Origin: Sphaerolaimus hirsutus
Lineage: Eukaryota > Nematoda > Chromadorea > Monhysterida > Sphaerolaimidae
Assembly (NCBI GenBank): GCA_964036195.1
Contig: OZ038452.1
Coordinates: 14,688,704-14,752,703 of the forward strand
Direction: 5' to 3'
Length of the DNA stretch: 64,000 nt
A program made the position numbers and the translations under genes. Within the stretch, counting starts at the first letter, position 1, and every line of letters starts with the position of its first letter. The notes below the pieces were generated by a model. That model had not been told where the DNA came from. It saw only the letters and a program-made list of their open reading frames with translations, and did not search any database. This document shows, piece after piece, positions 210 through 54,696 of the stretch.

Positions 210-3200
210 TCAATACTGCGTGCTGTACTGCTGGGCGAAGCTGCGCCAGTCCATGGGCGTCGCGTTGTACAGGCCGGCCTTTTCGGGCGTGAAGGCGCGC
301 GCGCGCGGCGGCGGCGCCGGCGGTGGGGGGCTGAACGTGCTGCGCAGCGTGGTCGTTGGCTGGGCTACCTGCGGGGGGTGTTGAGATGTTGGATTGGTGT
401 CCCTTGACGTGTGACGCGCCGTTGATCGGCTTGGGAATCGAGGAACGCGCAAACTGGGTGTTGACTAGTGCTAGCCAGCTATTTTAATGAGCTGGTTGGT
501 TGAGACACAATTTTGCCAGACGTTTGAAGCTCAATTTTCGATGTTTCACGATTCGTGACATTTTGCAGGTCACTTTCCGGGGTGCAGAATTTGTGCGCTT
601 TTAACTCTGTGTAACTCTGTTGACTTACCTCGCGACTAGGTGAGAACAACCGCGGCATGGAGGTTGACAGGCTCGGTCCGCCCCCGCCGTAGTCGGTGGA
701 TTTTGTGGCGCTGTAAATCATTGCATGGCCACTGTTATTCTACGTGTATTTACGTGGCGCACCACAGAGTGCTCCCACAGTCGCATACTGACCTGTAAGA
801 CTCTTGCACGTAGCCCTGAGTGATGGGCGCCACACTGGCCAGTGGCACATTGCGCTGGTGGACATTGGCCGCAATGTGTTCGATATTCTGATCGCGCTTG
901 GCGGCCGCCTTCTCCAGCACCGTCTGCGGCAAGTAGTCGATAGCAGAATTGTGCTCGTTGCGGCCCGCCTCGACGACCCATCGGTCGGCCGCCTCGCGCC
1001 GCCTGGGGCAGTCCCGGACCTTGTAAAATGTCAAATGTCACGCAAAGTGTCAAAAGTCATGTAAAATGCCCTGCAAAATGGCATACGTATGTACGTATGC
1101 CTTTTTCCAGGGCATTTTACATGACTTTTGACACTGCGTGACATTTTACAGGGCATTTTACAGGGTCTGGGACTGGCACCTGGAGAACAGGTCCATGCCG
1201 CGGCTGCGGCCCTGCTCGGACTCGCCGTGCAGCTGGCCGAAATCCTTGGGCCTGCGTTGTTGTTTTTTCGGTTGGATGGTGTGGTTTCACTTTCAAAGCT
1301 GACATTCTTTCTAACTGACCCAGCGGCTAGCTCTGCGTTCACACTCTGGATATGTTCCTTGCGCACGTCGCTCGACTGTGTCTATGTGTTGGTGGCGCGT
1401 TACAGAAAGCCTATTGAAGCATTGACTCTAATGAGAAGAAATTTCACTAAAGATAGGGTATTAATAATGAGACTGTCCACCGAACATGCACTAATTATTC
1501 AAGTGTAAGTGAGCTTCCTACAGACTCGCGTGTTTTGCACTGCGCTAATGAAAAGATTGCTGGAACGGCGCCAGAAAGATTTAACTAAGGACCGACAAAC
1601 ATTGGTGGGACTGTATTCTTCCCACTGCCCCCTAAGGAAAAGTAAAACAGCATCCGAACGCTTTTTGGCGCCAATCCATGGTATTGAGAAGAGGCACACT
1701 AAGTTATTTTTCAGCATGTTTTGGCTGGTGCATGTTCGTCATAGCCAGGTGTAACTCGTAGCTCGTAAGAATGTCGGGTGCACACATCTGACGCCTGCCT
1801 GATCGCAGCCAATTTGTAAATACCCTGTGCCTTACTGACCTGCTCTGTTCTCGTATCTGCGAAGTTGGGTGTTTTTGACGTATAAACAAATAAACATGCA
1901 TGGACTGGGGGCAGTCCCGAGCCCTGTAAATAGTTAAGTCAGGTGTCAAATGTCATGTAAAATGTAAATCAAAACAAAAACAAAATTGTTATTGGACTTT
2001 GCATGACAATTGGCACTTTCCATGACAGTTGACAAATTTGTATGACATTTTACATGACACTTGACACTTGACTTTTCACGTGTCAGGGTACGGGACTGGA
2101 ACCTGGGTGCAGTCCCAAACCCTTTAAAGTGTCAAATGTCATGTAAAATATGAATCAAAACAAACAAGAAAATTTTATTACTGAACTTTGCATGACAATT
2201 GACACGTCTTTATTTTACACTTTACAGGGTACGGGACTACCCCCAGGTGGTCACTTCAATTTGCTCACCGGTCTTGTAGCGGCTGTAGGATGCCATGCTG
2301 CTGTATGCGGTCTCCGGTTGAACTGCAGCGTTGGCGGGCGTGGACGGCCACTGCCTAGCCATCTGCGCCGCCGAGTCGTCACCGCTGGCAGCGCTGAACG
2401 GTGCCGTCGAGGGCGGCTTCTCCACTGCCCTGAATTTGGAGCCATGTGTGCAAACGAGACATTTCATGTGACACATTTCATGCATGCACTCACTGTGCCT
2501 GTGTATCTGCTGGCTGCCACGTGCTCGAAGTGGGCCGTTTGGGCGAGATGGGCCCCGCTGCGACGCCGGCGGGCGCGTGGTGAAACGAGTGATACATTTC
2601 CAGCCGCGGCACTTCGGCGAAGGCGGCGCTGAAGGGCGCCCGCCGGCCGTCGGACAGGCCGCCGCGCGGCGGCACGCTGCTCTCGCGCACCTCTTGCGAC
2701 AGGATGCGTAGCTTAACCTGCGGGCGGTTGGTGGCTGCTACGAACACGTGACAATCATTTATGTATACAGTATTCCCTCGAAATACCCCCGGGGGTTTAT
2801 TGTTTCAAAGTGCGAATTTGGGGGGTCAACAAAGGAGGGGGTATTTCGAGGGAACACGGTGTGTTTTTTTATCGATACATGACCACATGCGTCTAAATAT
2901 TTATGTATGTGTTATGTATAACAGTGTTGCATCGTAAGTATAGGCATTAGTAAACGCTGAGCAGACCCTGATGTGGAAGCCATGGCGTCCGGTGATATCA
3001 ACATTGAGGAACTGAATTATATACTCCGTGAGATCTGCCAGTGGGCGCTTGCGCTGCCCGCCCATGGCTGAGCGGCACGCCGAGATCACTGCCAACACCA
3101 GCGGGATCATTCAGCCGTTGTTGGACGTCTCCATTAATTAGCGCATAATTAATGACTTTTAATTGTCATTTGATTATTATCTAGCGTCTATGTACGGCCG

Positions 3201-6771: not shown

Positions 6772-7695
6772 CTGCACACCTTCTGGACTTATGTGAACCA
6801 TACTTTACAACTTCCACTGTGAAGCTGGGGACTAAAACGGCGGCCGGACGCGCTCAATGGCTATGTGAGCCGGGCCGAGCTGACATTTAGCCAGCTGCAT
6901 TTTGAACCGAAATTTTGTCCACTTAAATAAAGCTGGAGCTGAAGAAAGAGCGAGGAAACATGATGTTAAATATGAATGTGTTGTAGAATAGTAGGCGAAA
7001 TAGAATTTCCTTCCTAAAACAATCTACTGGAACACTCTGACGGAAGGGGTAGCGCGTTTCAAATTGCAGCAGTCATTTTATAGTAAATTACAATATAACT
7101 ACCTACTGCGCTGCGGTAGGCAATAAATGCTAGAGCAGGGCTGCTGGAGATGACCAAAATATGTTATTTATGAAATGATTTCAAAAAAATTTCATCAGCA
7201 ATTTTTTATTAAAAGACTCAGGCTACATTTCGTGTGGATGTACCAAGAAACACATACTGCCAGTTTCCTCTAAACGCAGTGTAAAAGAAGTCAATCAGAC
7301 GGTATCGACCACACTACAAAACCGCCAAACTTAAAAATTTAAGGTATCCTCCTTTTGCCTGAAGATCGTTTCAAAACGGCAGAAGGGGGAATGATCGTTG
7401 GACGTACTAGAACATTGTAAACATGTATGAAAACACCGCCGCCCGTCGCATAGCAGTGGCTAAAAGGCCGAGTGAGCGCATGTTCGGAACAAATGTGTTG
7501 CCAGGTGGGGCTAGGAAACTTCGACCGTAAGCTTCATACAGTACACGGTACTGCCGCACTCAGCCTACGTGAACGACAGCCCCGTGCACTCCGAGTACGC
7601 ATTGGCGCTGCTGAACAGGCCGGCACCGACTTCGACAGTCTGCAACAAACAAAACGGTCATTTTCACCATCTCCGCTGCGAATTTTTAAACCGTG

Positions 7696-7872
7696 GGGGC
7701 AGTCCCAGACCCTGTAAAGTGTAAAGTAAAGTGTCAAATGTCATGTAAAATGTCAATCAAAACAAAAAAAGAAAAAATTTATCACTGAACTTTGCATGAC
7801 AATTGACACTTTACTTTACATTTGTCATGACATTTGACAGTTTACACCTTACAGGGTCTGGGATTGGCACCA
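7696..7872 (-). mobile_element. Introner-family element without a usable acceptor
   Basis: Same family as 1003-1179. On the minus strand it starts GTGCCAATCCCAGACCCTG and ends GGTCTGGGACTGCCCCC. The flanking triplets are ATG and ACG instead of CAG, so no AG lies at the 3' junction and it does not form a GT-AG intron. Confidence 0.7.
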
Positions 7873-9277: not shown

Positions 9278-12200
9278 GTGGGAGGCAGCGTTCATTTTAC
9301 ATGTTGGATGGAAAGGAGACATGGAAGAAACCACCTCCGGCAGTAGAACCGTCTACGCTCCCGACTGACCACTTCAGCAGCTACTACCCCTTGAACAAAT
9401 TCGTGGCATGCCGCCCGCAACAGCTGGATGAAGACTACGCGTCCCCGTCGATGTTCACAGCTAGAGAGGGGCTGACCTCTGGCAGCGATCCTGAAAACGA
9501 TTACTGCTGCTCAGGTGCCAGTCCCAGACCCTGTAAAATGCCATGTAAAATGTAAAATGTCATGCAAAGTGTCGAAAGTCATGTAAAATTCCCGGTAAAA
9601 TGGCAAAAGTGCGTTGAAATTGAAAACTTTACTTCTACTTTACGCATTTTCTCGATAGGGCCATCCAACAAGCTATACACGAAGTGAGGAAACTTTCCTA
9701 TGAAAATACTCACTAAATTCTAACTTGGGGGGTTGTGGCGACATAAACACCTTCCCGATCAAGTCCGGCCCCCTATTTTTATTTTCACTTCACATGCCCT
9801 ATCTCTGGTTGTAGGAGGGGTGGAAAGCTAATACTTGTGGCGTACGGTATATAGGTGCAACGCCCCACTACCCCTCATGAATAAATGGGGCAGCGGCGAC
9901 TCACTATAGAGGGGGTCGCCGTATATGTGATAAAATTTCGCAGCGTTTTCACTGTCCCACACAGGTCCAGCCCCCAGTATATTTCTTACGTTACGGCTTG
10001 AAAAAGGGGCGTCAGGCGCCAATAACGCCACAGGAAATAGGTGCCACGGCGCGGCACCACTTGGCTATCTCAAATGGCGCCAGTGCCATGGCGCCATTCC
10101 GTCACTAACATTCCACAAACACCCACCCCTTAAGCAGCAGAGGAGAAAAAGAACTTTTGCAAATTTTAAAATGCATTTTTTGCTTTTATTTTTTTACACA
10201 CTTCACACGCTGGTTTATGATGCTTTTAAGAGGGGGGTGTAAGGGTCCAAGCTGCGTAAAAAAAGTTACCTCAAAAACGCCTCCATTAGAAAATTTACTT
10301 GGGGTGAACTTTATGATGTCAAAATTACGCCATCACAGGAACAAAAATTGTCAAAACTTTCAATTTTATATTAACCCCAAGTAAATTTTCTAATGGAGGC
10401 ATTTTTGGGGTATAGTTCTTTACGCAACTTGACACCTTAAACATTCCTCTATAAAACACCCTAAACCAGCGTGTCAAGTTTGTCACAAAATATAAGCGAA
10501 AAGTGCCTTTTAAAATTTAGTGTTTGGGATAAGGAATAAATATTGAGGTGTCGGGATTAGTGATGGAATAGCACCATGGCACTGGCACCATTTGATAAGG
10601 TCATTAGCGCTTAGCGTCTCTTTTATGTGACATTATTGGCGCCTAACGCCCCTTTTTCAAGCCTTAGTGTAAGAAATAAACTGGGGGCCGGACCTGTGCG
10701 GGACAGTGAAAACGCCGCAAATTTTTTTCACATATACGGCGACCCACTGTATAGTGAGTCGCCGCTGCCCCATTTATTCATGAGGGGTAGTGGGGGGTTG
10801 CACCTATATACGCCACAAGTATTAGCTTTCCACCCCTCCCACAACTGGAGATAGGGCATGCGAAGTGAAAATAAAAAAAGGGGGCCGGACTTGATCGGGA
10901 AGGTGTTTAGAACTTTCACGCAATCAGAAACATCATGGCGTATTTTGCCTTTGGCGCTAGTGCCATTGCGATGCTTAATCACTAACTATTTACTACCACT
11001 CGTAGATCTCACCGCAGCTCCAGACAATCCGGTTATCATAAGCGATCTGTCTGACGGCGACAAAGGGCCGCCAGCGACGACGCAAGCCGAGGACACATCT
11101 CTGCGAACGACGATTCACAAGGAAATTTGCAACGCCGCGGTGCAATTTCTACCTGTAAAACAGATCAGACGAGTGAAATCACATTCAGCGACCATTTTCA
11201 GTGCGCCTGCGACTGGCAGTCGTCGCTGCGAGGCGCCCTGCACGCTAGAGCGGCCAGTAACTGCAGCTCGCTGCTCGACGCGTACGTGCCGTGCGACATA
11301 GACCAGGTGCCGGTTACGCAAGTGGAGAAGTGTAAAGTAAAATAGCAAAAGCGAAGTAAAGTGGCAAGTAAATTGGCAAAAGTGAACAAAAGTAATTTCT
11401 CTTCACTTTTGCCATTTTACTTTTCACTTCTCCACTTGCGGAACTGGCCCCAGCAGCACTCGCGTGGCACAAAGTCTCCAAATGGGCGGCACGACCGCAG
11501 CGCCGACTCGCAGCGCGATTCGAGCAGAAAGGAAGTGCTAGGTGTCGATTCGGCGCGGTCATTTCATCCGCGCCTACGACGTTCGATGATAAATGACACA
11601 ACCACGGTTGGTCGATTGTATTCGATGTTGGTGCGCTCGGGACGTAATCTAGCGATGGAAAGCGACGGATAGAATTTACGACGGCACTGGCGCCAGTTGC
11701 CATCACCGCGCAATGGCCCTTGGTGCTCTCTTCTGAAGTAGTTTCTGCCGTCATACTTATGAGTCATGACCAATTACCATTGACGCCGTATTGGTGCTCT
11801 GGAACAGCACTTTTTTATGACGCATCACCGTCACTAGCCGTCACAATTTCCACATACCAAGCCATGATATTTCGCACGCAGCAACTGGCAACGGTTGAGG
11901 AACGCGATTCGGATAGCGCACACTCTGCATCTGCGGTCGACTCGTGTGGAAAGGACACGATGGTCGACTCCCGTGGATCGACGACCGCGAGCGGGTCTTC
12001 ATCGACCGCCGGATTGCACAGGATGCACTACGGCGGCACCGCGCTGCTGACTCGCTGCAGCAGCCAGCCATCCTTCGTGGTCGACCCCCGCTGGCCGGCG
12101 CTCAGTCACGAGCCGGTCGTGTTCGTGTGCGGTTGGCAGACGGTATGGTTTTGTTCACCTACCGTATTTCCTTGAACTAATCCCTCTACGGAATACCCGC

Positions 12201-19400: not shown

Positions 19401-22400
19401 TCAAGACAGAAAAGACACTGAAAGTAGGTAAATATGGCTCAAAGCGGTTAAAAGTAGCTAAAAATAGGTGTTGAACGAAAGATGTGTATACCACAAGATA
19501 ACGACTTTAAGTGCGAAAATTGGCAAACAGGTGGAAACATTTTGAGTAAAAATCGGCAACAACCGCTCCAGATTTGCTCCAGATACCTAGGTAGATAGCT
19601 GAGCGAGTCGATAGTTGGCTTTTAGGGGAAAGTAACCAAAACAATAAATGTTTCCACACACGCTTTAAAACACACACAAAATTTCAGGAGCCAAACGGTG
19701 ACTGCGGGACGCAAACCCAACCGCAGTGCGAAAATCCACTCGGCGCAGGGGATGGGCAGCCGAACGTGAGAAGGAAGCGTCAATCGCGGGAAGGTGACGT
19801 GACCGACGTGTGGGCCAAAATGGATGCGCTTGATCTGAGCGAGCAGGTGCGCAGTCGCAGCAGTATGTACTGTATTTCCTCGAAATACCCAAGGGGGTTT
19901 ACTTTTCATTGTGGCCATTTTGAGGGGGCTATTTCGAGGGGGGGGGCATTTCGAGGAAATACGGTAGCGGTGGTCTACGGTGCTCGCAAACAACAGCCAC
20001 CCTTCAAATCTGTCAGGAGCCGGCGGCGCGCACTCGGCCACACTTTGCACCAAAACCTGTGGCGTTGGACCAGCCGGAGACGTGCGTGCCGCTCGGCATG
20101 GCCGCCCTCGTGTTTGGCATCACCCTGGCCGGCGTCACGTTGGCAGCCGCAATTCTGCTCATCAGGTAAATATACACATTTCCCTCCATCAGTTTTTTTT
20201 AATAATCTGAATCAAATAATTCTCCCTGTTAGACCAGTGAGGAAAAAATAATTCCCCCTGTTAGACCAGTAAGGAAAAAATAATTCCCCCTGTTAGACCA
20301 GTAAGGAAAAAATAATTCCCCTCCTTGAATAATTCCCCCTTTAATGCATACGAGTAAGTAGTTTTGTCCAATTTGAACAAAAATGGCATGTTATTTTGTG
20401 AATAGAGCAATTTCTATCAAGTCATATTTCGTGATATAACTTGATATAAATATTCTTTCAAATTTTGACGAGATGATAATTCCCCTTGAATAATTTCCCC
20501 TCGAATAGTTCCTTCCCCCCAAAAAAACCCGACGAAAGAAAAATCCCCAGGAGGATTATCCAGCAAATACGATATTTATATACCGTATATCCTTGAATAA
20601 GACCCCCCCCTCGAATAATACCCCCCCTTGAATAACACCCCCCTGTTGGCCATGTGAGGAAAAAATAACGCCCCCCCTTGAATAACTCCCCCCTCTTGAA
20701 TAAGTCCCCCCTCTGGGTAAAACGATCGATGAGCAACACACGAAAATGAAAACGAAACAAACAGAAAAATAAAGCTATGTCTGGGCTGATTCATCGAATG
20801 CAAATGGGGTTTGGTGTGTGAAACGAAAAATAGAAAAGAATGTTAGCCGACGGCCGGGACGGCACAACAGATACATTTTGTGTACGCAGCGTATGCATAC
20901 CTACACGCTGATGAACACGACTTTTAGGATGGATACGTTGTTTTTGTGTTTGTTGAACTGGTCATTTTCTGCATTAGATGTGTTGACGGAATGCATACAA
21001 ACAATGAATAAAGTGAAAGTTTTCCTGGAAGTTCTGAGGAAAAAATAACTCCCCCCCTTGAATAGTACCCCCCCTTGAATAACTCCCCCCTCCAAAACCT
21101 CTGACGAAATAATAACGCCCCTGGGGTCTTATTCAAGGATATACGGTATTCCACAAACGCATGGCTGCTTCACAGAAGAGCGGGTGCGAATGATGATGAG
21201 AAGTGAAGAGCCGTGAGAACATGTGATTCTACTGCAATACCTCGCAACGGGGGCGACTTTGGAAACGGGTCAGCGCGCGGCGCCGTGCAATACTTTTCGT
21301 CTTGATGTTTTATCAACTTGATCGCTTTGCAATATACCAGTAGTGGAGGATTTTTTACATTAGGGTAATCCGAAATTCTGTAGATTTCTGTATCAAATTA
21401 AGGTTGGATTGCCGTAGTTGAATTAGAGATTGAGCTAAATGTGACGGAACTGAATTTAATAACACATTAGAAGGAGGCCAAGACACTTTATATACTGGCC
21501 ACTTTATATACTGCCAAAAACGACACTTAAGATACCAAAGTGCGACACTTCTGATACCAAAGTGCGACAGTTTTGATACCAACATTTTTTCCTCTCATGC
21601 CGCTTTGACGCGACACTTTTGATACCAAAGTGCGACACTTCTGATACCAAAGTGCGACACTTCTGATGCCACCATTTTTTTACCTCATGCTGCTTAAACG
21701 CGACACTTTTTGTACCACTGGTGCTGTTGTGCGATCGTTTCAAGCTACCGTTTTTTGCAACATGCTACCGTTTTTTCGTCATGCAGCAAAATGCTACACT
21801 TTTCATTGTGTGACAGTTCACGTGAATGGGTTGTAATTTATGTAAATGTACATTTTATATGGGGCAGGCCTGATACGCACATCTGCCCGTTACGCACATT
21901 TGCCCGTTTTTTTCACTTGACACTTTTTCAAGTGATTTTCAGATATGAGTAAAGTGAAAAAAAGTTGCACAATGACATTAGTGAACTTTTTCCACTTCAC
22001 TCATATCTGAAAATCACTTGAAAATGTGTCAAGTGAAAAAAACTGAAAAATAGCCATTTTTCACTTGACACATTTTCAAGTGATTTTCAGATATGAGTGA
22101 AGTGAAAAAAAGTTCACTGATGTGATTGCGCAGCGTTTTTCACTTCACTCATATCTGAAAATCACTTAAAAAACTGTCAAGTGAAAAAACAGGCAAATGT
22201 GCGTAACGGGCAGATGTGTGTATCAGTGCACCCCCATTTTATATACTCATTATTGTACATTGATTTCTACTTTACAAATCAACTTTTCAATTGAATTAAC
22301 AATGGCAAGCTTTAACAATGTGTTAAAAAAAACTAAATAAAGCAAATCAAAGTAAAAATATTAGTAAACAATAACTGGATCATCTTCAATGGAATTAAAT

Positions 22401-52635: not shown

Positions 52636-54696
52636 TAGGGTTGGAAAAAAAACGTTTTTTTTTAACTCGATGTTTTTTTATATAAAAAAACGTTGTTTTT
52701 TTAAAAAAAACGTTTTTTTTTAAATAAAAAACGTTTTTTTTTTAAAGCTCCCAGATATAACCTTGTGTCAACATATATAGGTATATCAGACAGTGGCAAT
52801 ACTCTGTGATGTTATATATGACCATATAATGTCTGTGGAGCCATGGGATAGCATTATAAGTGGTGATTTGTGTCAAAAATATCCATTTTTCGTCGACATA
52901 TCGTTCGTATATCACCTTATAGTCGAATGTTCGTGACTTCAGGTAAAGTTTGGCATGGAATAGTGATCAAACAAGGTTATAAAACGAGGTTGTTACTTTG
53001 GGAGTGAAGTTACACACTGTGGAGGTTAGGGTTCAAACGATATATCGTATCGAATATCGAATATCGGATATCGACCATTTTTTAATATCGAATATCGAAT
53101 ATCGATATCGAAAATTTTGAAAAAATATCGAATATCGAATATCGATATCGAAAATTTTGAAAAAATATCGAATATCGACCATTTTTTCGATATATCGAAC
53201 CTGTATTGTGTCCCCAAATTTACTTTTCATTTTCATTTTGAGATGTTTATGGTTGATCTGATGTGCTTATAGTATTGTATTTGATGAGTAAAAGTACAGT
53301 ATTTATAATGTCATTGTTGTTGGAGTGCTAAATTTGAAGCAAGAAAACGCTGATATACTTTTTTTTTGCAACATGCCCTTAAGCAATTAGGTTAGGATGA
53401 ACTGTAATATCTACCAATTGTTATTTGTCTGATACACTTTGATTCATCATGTTTCTCTTCTATTTTCTACCATTGAGTGATGTAAAGCTTGTTAAAATCA
53501 CTTGTACCATTCAAATTTCAGTAAAGAGATGATTAAACATGTGTGCAACCACATGAAAATACAATATGCCACTTGAAATATGCCTTGCTATACCAAAAGC
53601 ATATCGCAATATCGAATATCAAAAATATTGAATATCGAATATCGACCATTTTTCAATATCGAATATCGATATCGAGGTTCCATATCGTATCGATATCAAA
53701 TATCGAGTTTCAGAAGAAAATATCGAATATCGAATATCGATATCGAAAATTTTGAAAAAATATCAAATATCGAATATCGATATCGAAAAGTCATATCGTT
53801 TGAACGAGTCTGCATCAAAATCCAAACAGCGCATAATCCAAACAGCATAATCCAAACAAAAATGAGGCATAATCCAAACGAAAATGAGGCATAATCCAAA
53901 CACTTTTTGTGCCCCAAACTGCAGCATAATCCAAACAGAAATGAGGCAAAATCCAAACAAAAATGAGGCATAATCCAAACACTCGTCCAAGCACTCCATC
54001 AGAGAAGTGAACACCACCTGACATTTAAGGGGCAGGTTAAATGGGAAAATGACTTGATTTGTAGCTTTGAAGTGACCAAACAACGAATGGATGGTTCTTG
54101 CCATTATTGCAATTTCAGTGCAGTGGTTGTCAAAATGGCAACATCATATGTAAATACATGAATGCATGAGAATAGGCAACGTGAGTGTTTGGATTATGCT
54201 TCATTTTTGTTTGGATTTTGCCTCATTTCTGTTTGGATTATGCTGCAGTTTGGGGCACAAAAAAGTGTTTGGATTATGCCTCATTTTCGTTTGGATTTTG
54301 CCTCATTTTTGTTTGGATAATGCTGTTTGGATTATGCGCTGTTTGGATTCTGAGCTTTCCCCGTTTGAACCCTAGTGGAGGTACATGGAAGCACATTACC
54401 TCAATATTATATACTACAGCAACATATGACGGCTTATTAACCCATGGTAGCATATATAATTGGATACTTTGATACTAAAAATGCCACAAAACCAATGAAA
54501 ACAACCACCAATGTCAATTTGTGTGTGAAATTGCGCGCTTGCGCGCAAAAATTTTGCAAAATACCTAGTGCTTAGTACTAAAAATTCCGGTCGATGTTTT
54601 TTTAAAAAAAAAAACATTTCGGACGTCATGTTTTTTAAAAAAAACAACGTTTTTTTTAAATAAAAAACGTTTAAAAAAAAACATCGACCAACCCTA
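52636..54696. mobile_element. hAT-like MITE, TAGGGTTGG family, split by a nested element
   Basis: Outer ends TAGGGTTGG and CCAACCCTA with GTATCCTC on both sides. Removing 53027-54374 leaves a copy of about 713 bp co-linear with 37433-38096. Confidence 0.9.
53027..54374. mobile_element. Nested 1,348-bp element, TAGGGTTCAAACG ends
   Basis: Ends TAGGGTTCAAACG and CGTTTGAACCCTA, flanked by GTGGAGGT on both sides (8-bp duplication). Two TATCGAATATCGA satellite blocks (53040-53195, 53600-53790) and an inverted pair of AATCCAAACAAAAATGAGGC arrays (53818-53985 versus 54186-54350) make up the interior. Confidence 0.88.

Follow-up and report, generated by a model that had tools for sequence, protein, structure and literature searches.

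The window analysed here, a stretch of 64,000 nucleotides, carries near its start (minus strand) a hairpin element that seems to be a transposon and an intron at the same time. This raises the question of whether a mobile DNA element has made a whole intron here and, if so, by which route it is taken out of the transcript again. The answer that we find very probable is that the element is an introner, namely a non-autonomous DNA transposon (MITE) whose insertion into an exon, in sense orientation, creates a spliceosomal intron. The case is built up from the element itself, its relatives in the genome, the reading frames and proteins around them, and the biases of their ends.

The hairpin element of gene A and its relatives

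Read on the minus strand from 1179 to 1003, the element starts with GTGCCAGTCCCAGACC and ends with GGTCCGGGACTGCCCCAG. A CAG directly precedes it (1182-1180), and CAG also forms its final three bases (1005-1003); the junction sequence thus runs ..CTCCAG, then GTGCCAGTCCC..GGGACTGCCCCAG, then GCGG... Its inverted repeats comprise an outer pair (1009-1030/1154-1175, 91%) and a central pair (1046-1089/1092-1135, 95%). The strand folds at -112.2 kcal/mol, compared with -41.1 +/- 4.1 for 200 shuffled sequences (z -17.25), none of which folded as well, and the stem is interrupted by only a few small bulges. The sequence-only reading had described a single hairpin transposon-like element that carries the GT donor, with a duplicated CAG giving the AG acceptor, and a hairpin element whose ends are the proposed splice sites is confirmed at this place. 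A chance origin is excluded, as ten contigs carry other copies that are 77-90% identical to it (scored were 40 of the 2078 first-look candidates).

Taking the element out gives TTC TCC AG^G CGG CGC, in the frame that has the top coding score on both flanks, and joining 1251-1180 to 1002-793 in phase 2 yields FS-R-RREAADRW. The earlier claim of a frame restored with phase AG/G thus holds, the best-scoring coding frame being the same across both exons. The gene itself, here called gene A, has no relatives to lean on. Its 310-aa model (six joined exon pieces, partly guessed) found no protein-database homologue at E <= 0.001 among 2308 candidates, and the two-exon peptide found no Pfam match above the cut-off (best E 0.022), while its top PDB match had an E of 0.73. 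Lacking a match in Pfam above cut-off, in PDB or in the protein database, we rejected naming the gene; its exons accordingly stand on codon statistics and splice-site logic. For the same reason the case of gene A taken alone is suggestive only, and the argument is carried by the family to which its element belongs (family A). The features are collected in Table 1.

Table 1. Gene A, hairpin elements and related features, in window coordinates unless a locus is named
Feature	Position	Strand	Remarks
Probable introner (family A) forming an entire gene A intron	1003..1179	-	GTGCCAGTCCC..GGGACTGCCCCAG; sequence, repeats, fold, family matches, coding frame
Exonic target-duplication copy, CAG	1180..1182	-	partner copy 1003-1005 as putative acceptor; family-wide CWG duplications
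Gene A upstream exon	1180..1251	-	PKDFGQLHGESEQGRSRGMDLFSR; best coding frame, agrees with downstream exon; without homologue
Gene A downstream exon	793..1002	-	ends TCTTACAG, then GTCAGT; coding frame
Old family A copy, CAG/CAG	1905..2102	-	28.7% from consensus; within the inferred preceding intron of gene A; profile match
Old degenerate family A copy	2102..2248	-	left end GGGTAGTCCC; profile match
Diverged family A copy	7692..7872	-	profile match, 112.7 bits
Partial family A copy	9510..9615	+	profile match, 96.3 bits
Family B introner candidate	11307..11453	+	GTGCCGGTTACGCAAG..CTTGCGGAACTGGCCCCAG between CAG duplicates
Further family B copies	L007 1831-2051; L029 403-587, 1067-1282; L031 3273-3487

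The preceding gene A intron (2240-1252) may draw its donor, GT at 2240-2239, from the left end of the old degenerate copy, a reading suggested by phase 2 fitting both exons. Elsewhere in the window, a 630-nt inverted repeat pair (37470-38099/46277-46906) is 96% complementary over a distance of 8.2 kb and has relatives at about 52.7, 54.4, 57.4, and 59.8 kb. Nested inverted repeats at 9744-10909 (194 nt, 90%; 101 nt, 95%) form a palindrome of about 1.2 kb. Satellite-like arrays of short units occupy 53084-53789 (AATATCGA units) and 53821-54353 (GCATAATCCAAAC units, with near-perfect inverted copies), and 32-bp tandem units (CCCCCTGTTAGACCAGTAAGGAAAAAATAATT) with dispersed relatives lie at 20222-20339. 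Neither a tRNA nor an Rfam family reaching the gathering score was found in the window.

Family A is large. Searching the element against its own genome (348 Mb, 762 contigs) gave at least 80 alignments, both strands counted (40 of 2078 candidates scored). With a profile made from 26 retrieved copies, we obtained 48 matches without overlap at E <= 1e-3, fragments and degenerate copies included (26 above 60 bits), in 20 stretches of 10 kb (200 kb in all). The stretches were taken from 10 large contigs at round coordinates and do not form a strictly random sample. Extrapolating from these stretches, we arrive at tens of thousands of copies genome-wide, again with fragments included. The 25-base left end CWGGTGCCAGTCCCNGACCCTGTAA alone occurs exactly 1,243 times (control 0). 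The sequence-only reading had further proposed a genome-wide search with the element ends. Family A ends in GTGCCAGTCCC (left) and GGGGGCAGTCCC (right), and a search for exact ends returned 362 full-length copies. They are a subset of all copies, since the end motifs had to be identical and the inner length had to lie at 138-168 (the window copy, with one C fewer, falls outside it), and a few cases may pair the ends of neighbouring copies. By left/right triplet these are CAG/CAG (194), CTG/CTG (100), CTG/CAG (51), and CAG/CTG (17), and every reversed-pattern control gave 0. A 27-mer of the element had 0 matches in viral contigs.

The consensus of 40 copies measures 183 nt and folds into one stem (-138.5 kcal/mol). 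Apart from a loop of 4 nt and a bulge of 12 nt on one side, only its ends are unpaired, with four bases on the left (GTGC) and seven on the right (CCCCCAG). Since the divergence of the 40 aligned copies from the consensus splits into 33 copies at 2.8-11.2% (the youngest at 3-5%) and seven at 27-31%, it suggests a recent wave on top of an older layer or subfamily.

Reading frames and proteins across the junctions

For the closer analysis, loci L001-L030 were chosen by similarity to the window copy; several were one place read on both strands, and duplicates were removed by sequence (L002 and L008 look like a segmental duplicate, and the boundary of the L017 copy, with 5 end mismatches, is uncertain). 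From a set of 57 copies we dropped six in which no right end could be recognised and then ten whose ends had more than 3 mismatches, leaving 41 good-ended copies. On both flanks of 21 of them there is a coding signal, meaning a score above 2 on both sides on at least one strand, with the score trained on peptides from eight loci that are partly among those tested. The same similarity is thus repeated in many genes, and it reaches the proposed splice boundaries.

Removal of the element together with one CWG triplet (CAG or CTG) keeps the frame in 20 of the 21 coding-flanked copies (L030 is the exception). When flanks are shuffled between copies, an agreement of 10.1 is expected, and 0 of 200,000 shuffles reached 20. 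Outside the training loci and L015, the frame agrees in 13 of 14 copies and the gene runs sense to the element in 11 of 14. Over all coding-flanked copies the codon score favours sense in 18 of 21; antisense does as well or better in the other three, by a near tie in L003 and in L004 but clearly in L019, though the antisense frames of L019 disagree.

Ten joined peptides were compared with Pfam. They were picked by eye and CTG sites were favoured on purpose, so that the CTG share among them is no estimate. Half of them (5/10) align across the junction, and all five are sense to the element. In L015, a sodium/calcium exchanger (NCX), the alignment to PDB 8jp0 (a solved NCX1) passes through the junction without a gap (77 residues, 114 bits), while the Pfam match covers one side of the junction only. 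A receptor-like tyrosine kinase (L029) and the large subunit of primase (L031) likewise align with no gap at the junction, an ENaC/ASC channel (L038) has a Pfam match across it, and a DOMON protein (L007) matches across it at E 2.3e-7, just under the Pfam cut-off. Four of the ten peptides had no Pfam match, and a weak Tudor match stops short of the junction.

These boundaries bear on the idea that the element jumped into a pre-existing intron, which it now happens to fill. Some copies do lie in apparently non-coding DNA, such as the one at 1905-2102 in a longer-looking intron, and 20 of the 41 good-ended copies are without coding signal on both flanks. However, the coding-flanked copies abut coding sequence on both sides, with a target copy in the exon and the frame kept, and excision exactly at the element ends gives the NCX protein without a gap or an extra residue. 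On boundaries and frame we rejected this idea, which we hold to be very improbable.

Target sites, element ends and the proposed acceptor

CAG or CTG stands on both sides of 35 of the 41 good-ended copies, and the triplet is identical on both sides in 28, so that terminal inverted repeats and a target duplication occur together, as in a DNA transposon (MITE). Before filtering, the number was 40 of 57, where the first CWG encountered near the right end, at most a few bases away, counted as the right triplet, a rule that favours finding CWG there. The base preceding the triplet is C in 25/41 copies and the base following it is G in 26/41, which makes the target CCWGG-like, a palindrome.

The two ends of the element are not equivalent. 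Their outer bases differ (GTGC on the left, CCCC(C) on the right), the remainder being inverted repeat, and symmetric ends of the GTGC/GCAC type were found at 9 places, against 362 asymmetric ones. An intron with its donor at one end and a pyrimidine-rich acceptor at the opposite end would need such an asymmetry. The triplets are biased as well: in the 362 exact-ended copies the right one is CAG 245 times and CTG 117 times (p 1.5e-11), and the left one shows a weaker bias (211 vs 151, p 0.002). If no selection acted on the ends, one would expect as many CAG/CAG as CTG/CTG copies, and equal numbers in the two mixed classes. Both expectations fail, with 194 vs 100 for the former (p 4.5e-8) and an excess of CTG/CAG over CAG/CTG for the latter (51 vs 17, p 4.5e-5); these p-values assume independent copies, which duplicates such as L002/L008 slightly weaken. 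The CAG bias of the right copy falls where the acceptor AG would sit. On the other hand, the consensus holds a stronger-looking acceptor (TTTTACAG) 19 nt upstream of the proposed one, which counts against an introner.

From these features a mechanism can be proposed. A DNA transposase would insert the element at a C-C(A/T)G-G-like target and duplicate the 3-bp CWG. The left end of the element would bring the GT donor, forming CAG/GT with the first target copy, and with the second copy the intron would end in CCCCCAG, which offers an AG acceptor rich in pyrimidines. The spliceosome, using the GT of the element and the (A/T)G of the duplication, would then remove the element plus one target copy, whereby the original coding sequence would be regained; the hairpin may help by drawing the element ends together. 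Insertion at a CTG target would give a GT-TG intron, and there would be pressure on the right copy for a T-to-A change that makes the intron GT-AG. Such a selection from TG to AG agrees with CTG/CAG being commoner than CAG/CTG.

The CTG sites deserve a separate look. In four of the five cases with homology across the junction the right end is CTG (L029, L038, and L007 are CTG/CTG, L031 is CGG/CTG), and exact removal of the element and one CTG yields the conserved protein, which would imply GT...TG introns. GT-TG introns at CTG sites appear to be tolerated, with TG as their putative acceptor. Any coding copies among the 100 exact CTG/CTG ones must either use TG as acceptor or be removed by another route, which counts against an introner; the candidate readings are efficient splicing, such another route, or damaging young insertions. 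In the available text of PMC2374985, TG 3' splice sites are described in 36 human genes. A closer likeness comes from the IE-B and IE-D introners of Micromonas, for which the accessible part of PMC3879977 gives GT-TG sites, the class predicted here for the CTG/CTG copies. The Micromonas families differ in being small (25 members for IE-B, 6 for IE-D) and in that some IE-B copies extend to 6.5 kb, and the term 'inverted repeat' has 0 matches in the text of that paper as available.

With an element paired almost throughout, the main rival is a removal of the hairpin from RNA that depends on its paired inverted repeats and not on splice sites, with GT and AG at the ends being incidental. In animals, a hairpin-recognising, splice-site-independent RNA removal goes by the name of 'SOS splicing' (in our literature search the term was absent among the papers listed). 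In its favour, the element is a near-complete hairpin, and copies without AG (CTG/CTG) sit in conserved genes with the frame kept. Yet a removal of this kind should ignore orientation and end sequence, whereas all five junction homologies are sense, asymmetric ends outnumber symmetric ones (362 against 9), and CAG prevails over CTG in the right copy. Orientation and acceptor biases thus speak against hairpin-directed removal as the sole route, and we regard it as unlikely.

One may also ask whether the coding copies are removed from RNA at all. They could be recent harmful insertions or assembly/haplotype artefacts that stay in place, or be cut from the DNA in some cells, and the low divergence of the youngest copies would suit this. 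But coding-flanked copies at 5-11% from the consensus remain in open frames, and excision at the DNA level leaves both the AG bias at one end and the sense orientation unexplained; we consider this reading highly doubtful. On orientation and acceptor bias, DNA-level and hairpin-only removal were rejected, and the introner remains our preferred reading.

Candidate mobilising enzyme, known introners and significance

MITEs of the PIF/Harbinger group make 3-bp target duplications, usually of TWA, and a zebrafish Harbinger element reportedly has a palindromic, CCWGG-centred target (that target string was not found in our literature search). Family A shares the 3-bp duplication, and its CWG within CCWGG recalls the zebrafish element, but what it duplicates is CWG and not the usual TWA. 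DDE_Tnp_4 (PIF/Harbinger-type) matches are present in the genome at a count of at least 163 (150 of 306 candidates scored), and dozens of them lie at 58.5-58.8 bits, being very homogeneous. A PIF/Harbinger-like transposase is the leading and most likely candidate for the enzyme that would mobilise family A.

Most of the listed DDE_Tnp_4 matches are 633 bases long, although they cover about 147 profile positions, and contain 4 in-frame TGA, so they look as if each carried an intron of about 190 nt. That this in-frame interruption (~192 nt) is itself a family A introner was not supported, because the consensus has at most 2 TGA per frame against the 4 in most listed matches.

A second, related hairpin family (family B), with ends GTGCCRGTTCCGCAA..TTGCGGAACTGGCCC, adjoins CWG copies in several loci. 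When its copy in the window (11307-11453) is removed, an open sense frame results (score 12.7); an antisense frame with stops at the ends scores higher (16.8), which makes the coding flanks uncertain. Family B may be a second introner family.

The host genome itself calls for a comment. Its mitochondrial contig uses the invertebrate code, with AGA read as Ser at 8/8 scorable conserved positions and TGA as Trp at 11/12. In the best 120 matches listed for each protein, COX1 is closest to two unnamed proteins (89% and 79% identity) and, among named ones, to insects (~66%). For NAD1 the nearest named proteins are those of gastropods (~47%), and the list includes a flatworm and a bryozoan as well. 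The nearest named matches point to different phyla, and none of those listed is a close relative of this animal. No nematode names were seen in these lists, in which some entries are unnamed or have shortened names. Of the sequence-only reading, the introner interpretation was well supported (a repeated element with terminal inverted repeats, ends at the splice sites, and a restored frame), while the attribution to a nematode was not borne out by COX1 and NAD1.

That reading had also placed introners in a few eukaryotic lineages; their range is wider, as the accessible part of PMC9860276 reports them in 175 of 3,325 genomes, including two animal groups, with copepods named. Family A shows every introner feature that we examined by sequence and corresponds to the class described there that carries its own 5' splice site and takes the 3' site from the duplication. 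In common with the introners of that survey, as far as its text was available, it has near-identical repeated introns, ends at the splice boundaries, terminal inverted repeats, and short target-site duplications; introner insertion plus splicing usually leaves mRNA length unchanged (PMC9860276). The introners of Chrysochromulina sp. (Fig. 2C of PMC9860276) likewise carry a 5' splice site and co-opt the 3' site from the duplication. The elements of that figure are described as lacking terminal inverted repeats and making 4-bp duplications, whereas family A is a near-complete hairpin with unpaired ends and a 3-bp CWG duplication. Set against the survey as available, the copy number here appears very high.

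The introner elements of Amoebophrya (PMC7789003, seen in part) resemble family A in their hairpin-forming inverted repeats, direct repeats of 3-5 nt at the boundaries, and many copies. Most introns there are described as non-canonical, with no clear dinucleotide signature, and a splice-site-independent removal has been proposed for them, whereas family A has GT within the element and favours AG. The available part of a nematode intron-gain study (PMC9169325) reports that no source sequences for gains were found in Caenorhabditis. No description of family A was found among the introner papers listed for animal, copepod, transmission, and nematode contexts, a list that subscription papers mostly fall outside.

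Taken together, these elements allow a broader picture that we offer tentatively, as possible rather than probable. An animal genome would be filling with introns through tens of thousands of insertions of hairpin MITEs, moved by a PIF/Harbinger-type transposase. Its spliceosome would take TG as routinely as AG at 3' ends, the single variable base of the CWG target would set whether a new intron is GT-AG or GT-TG, and selection would turn TG into AG.

Introners are a leading explanation for bursts of intron gain, and the survey found them in two animal groups only, going by its accessible text (PMC9860276). Here one animal family displays the proposed mechanism in its sequence, namely a target with one variable base, a donor borne by the element, and an acceptor made by the duplication. 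With hundreds of candidate introns, GT-AG and GT-TG, matched within a single genome, it also amounts to a natural experiment by which two questions become testable: how new introns gain efficiency, and how strictly the animal spliceosome needs AG.
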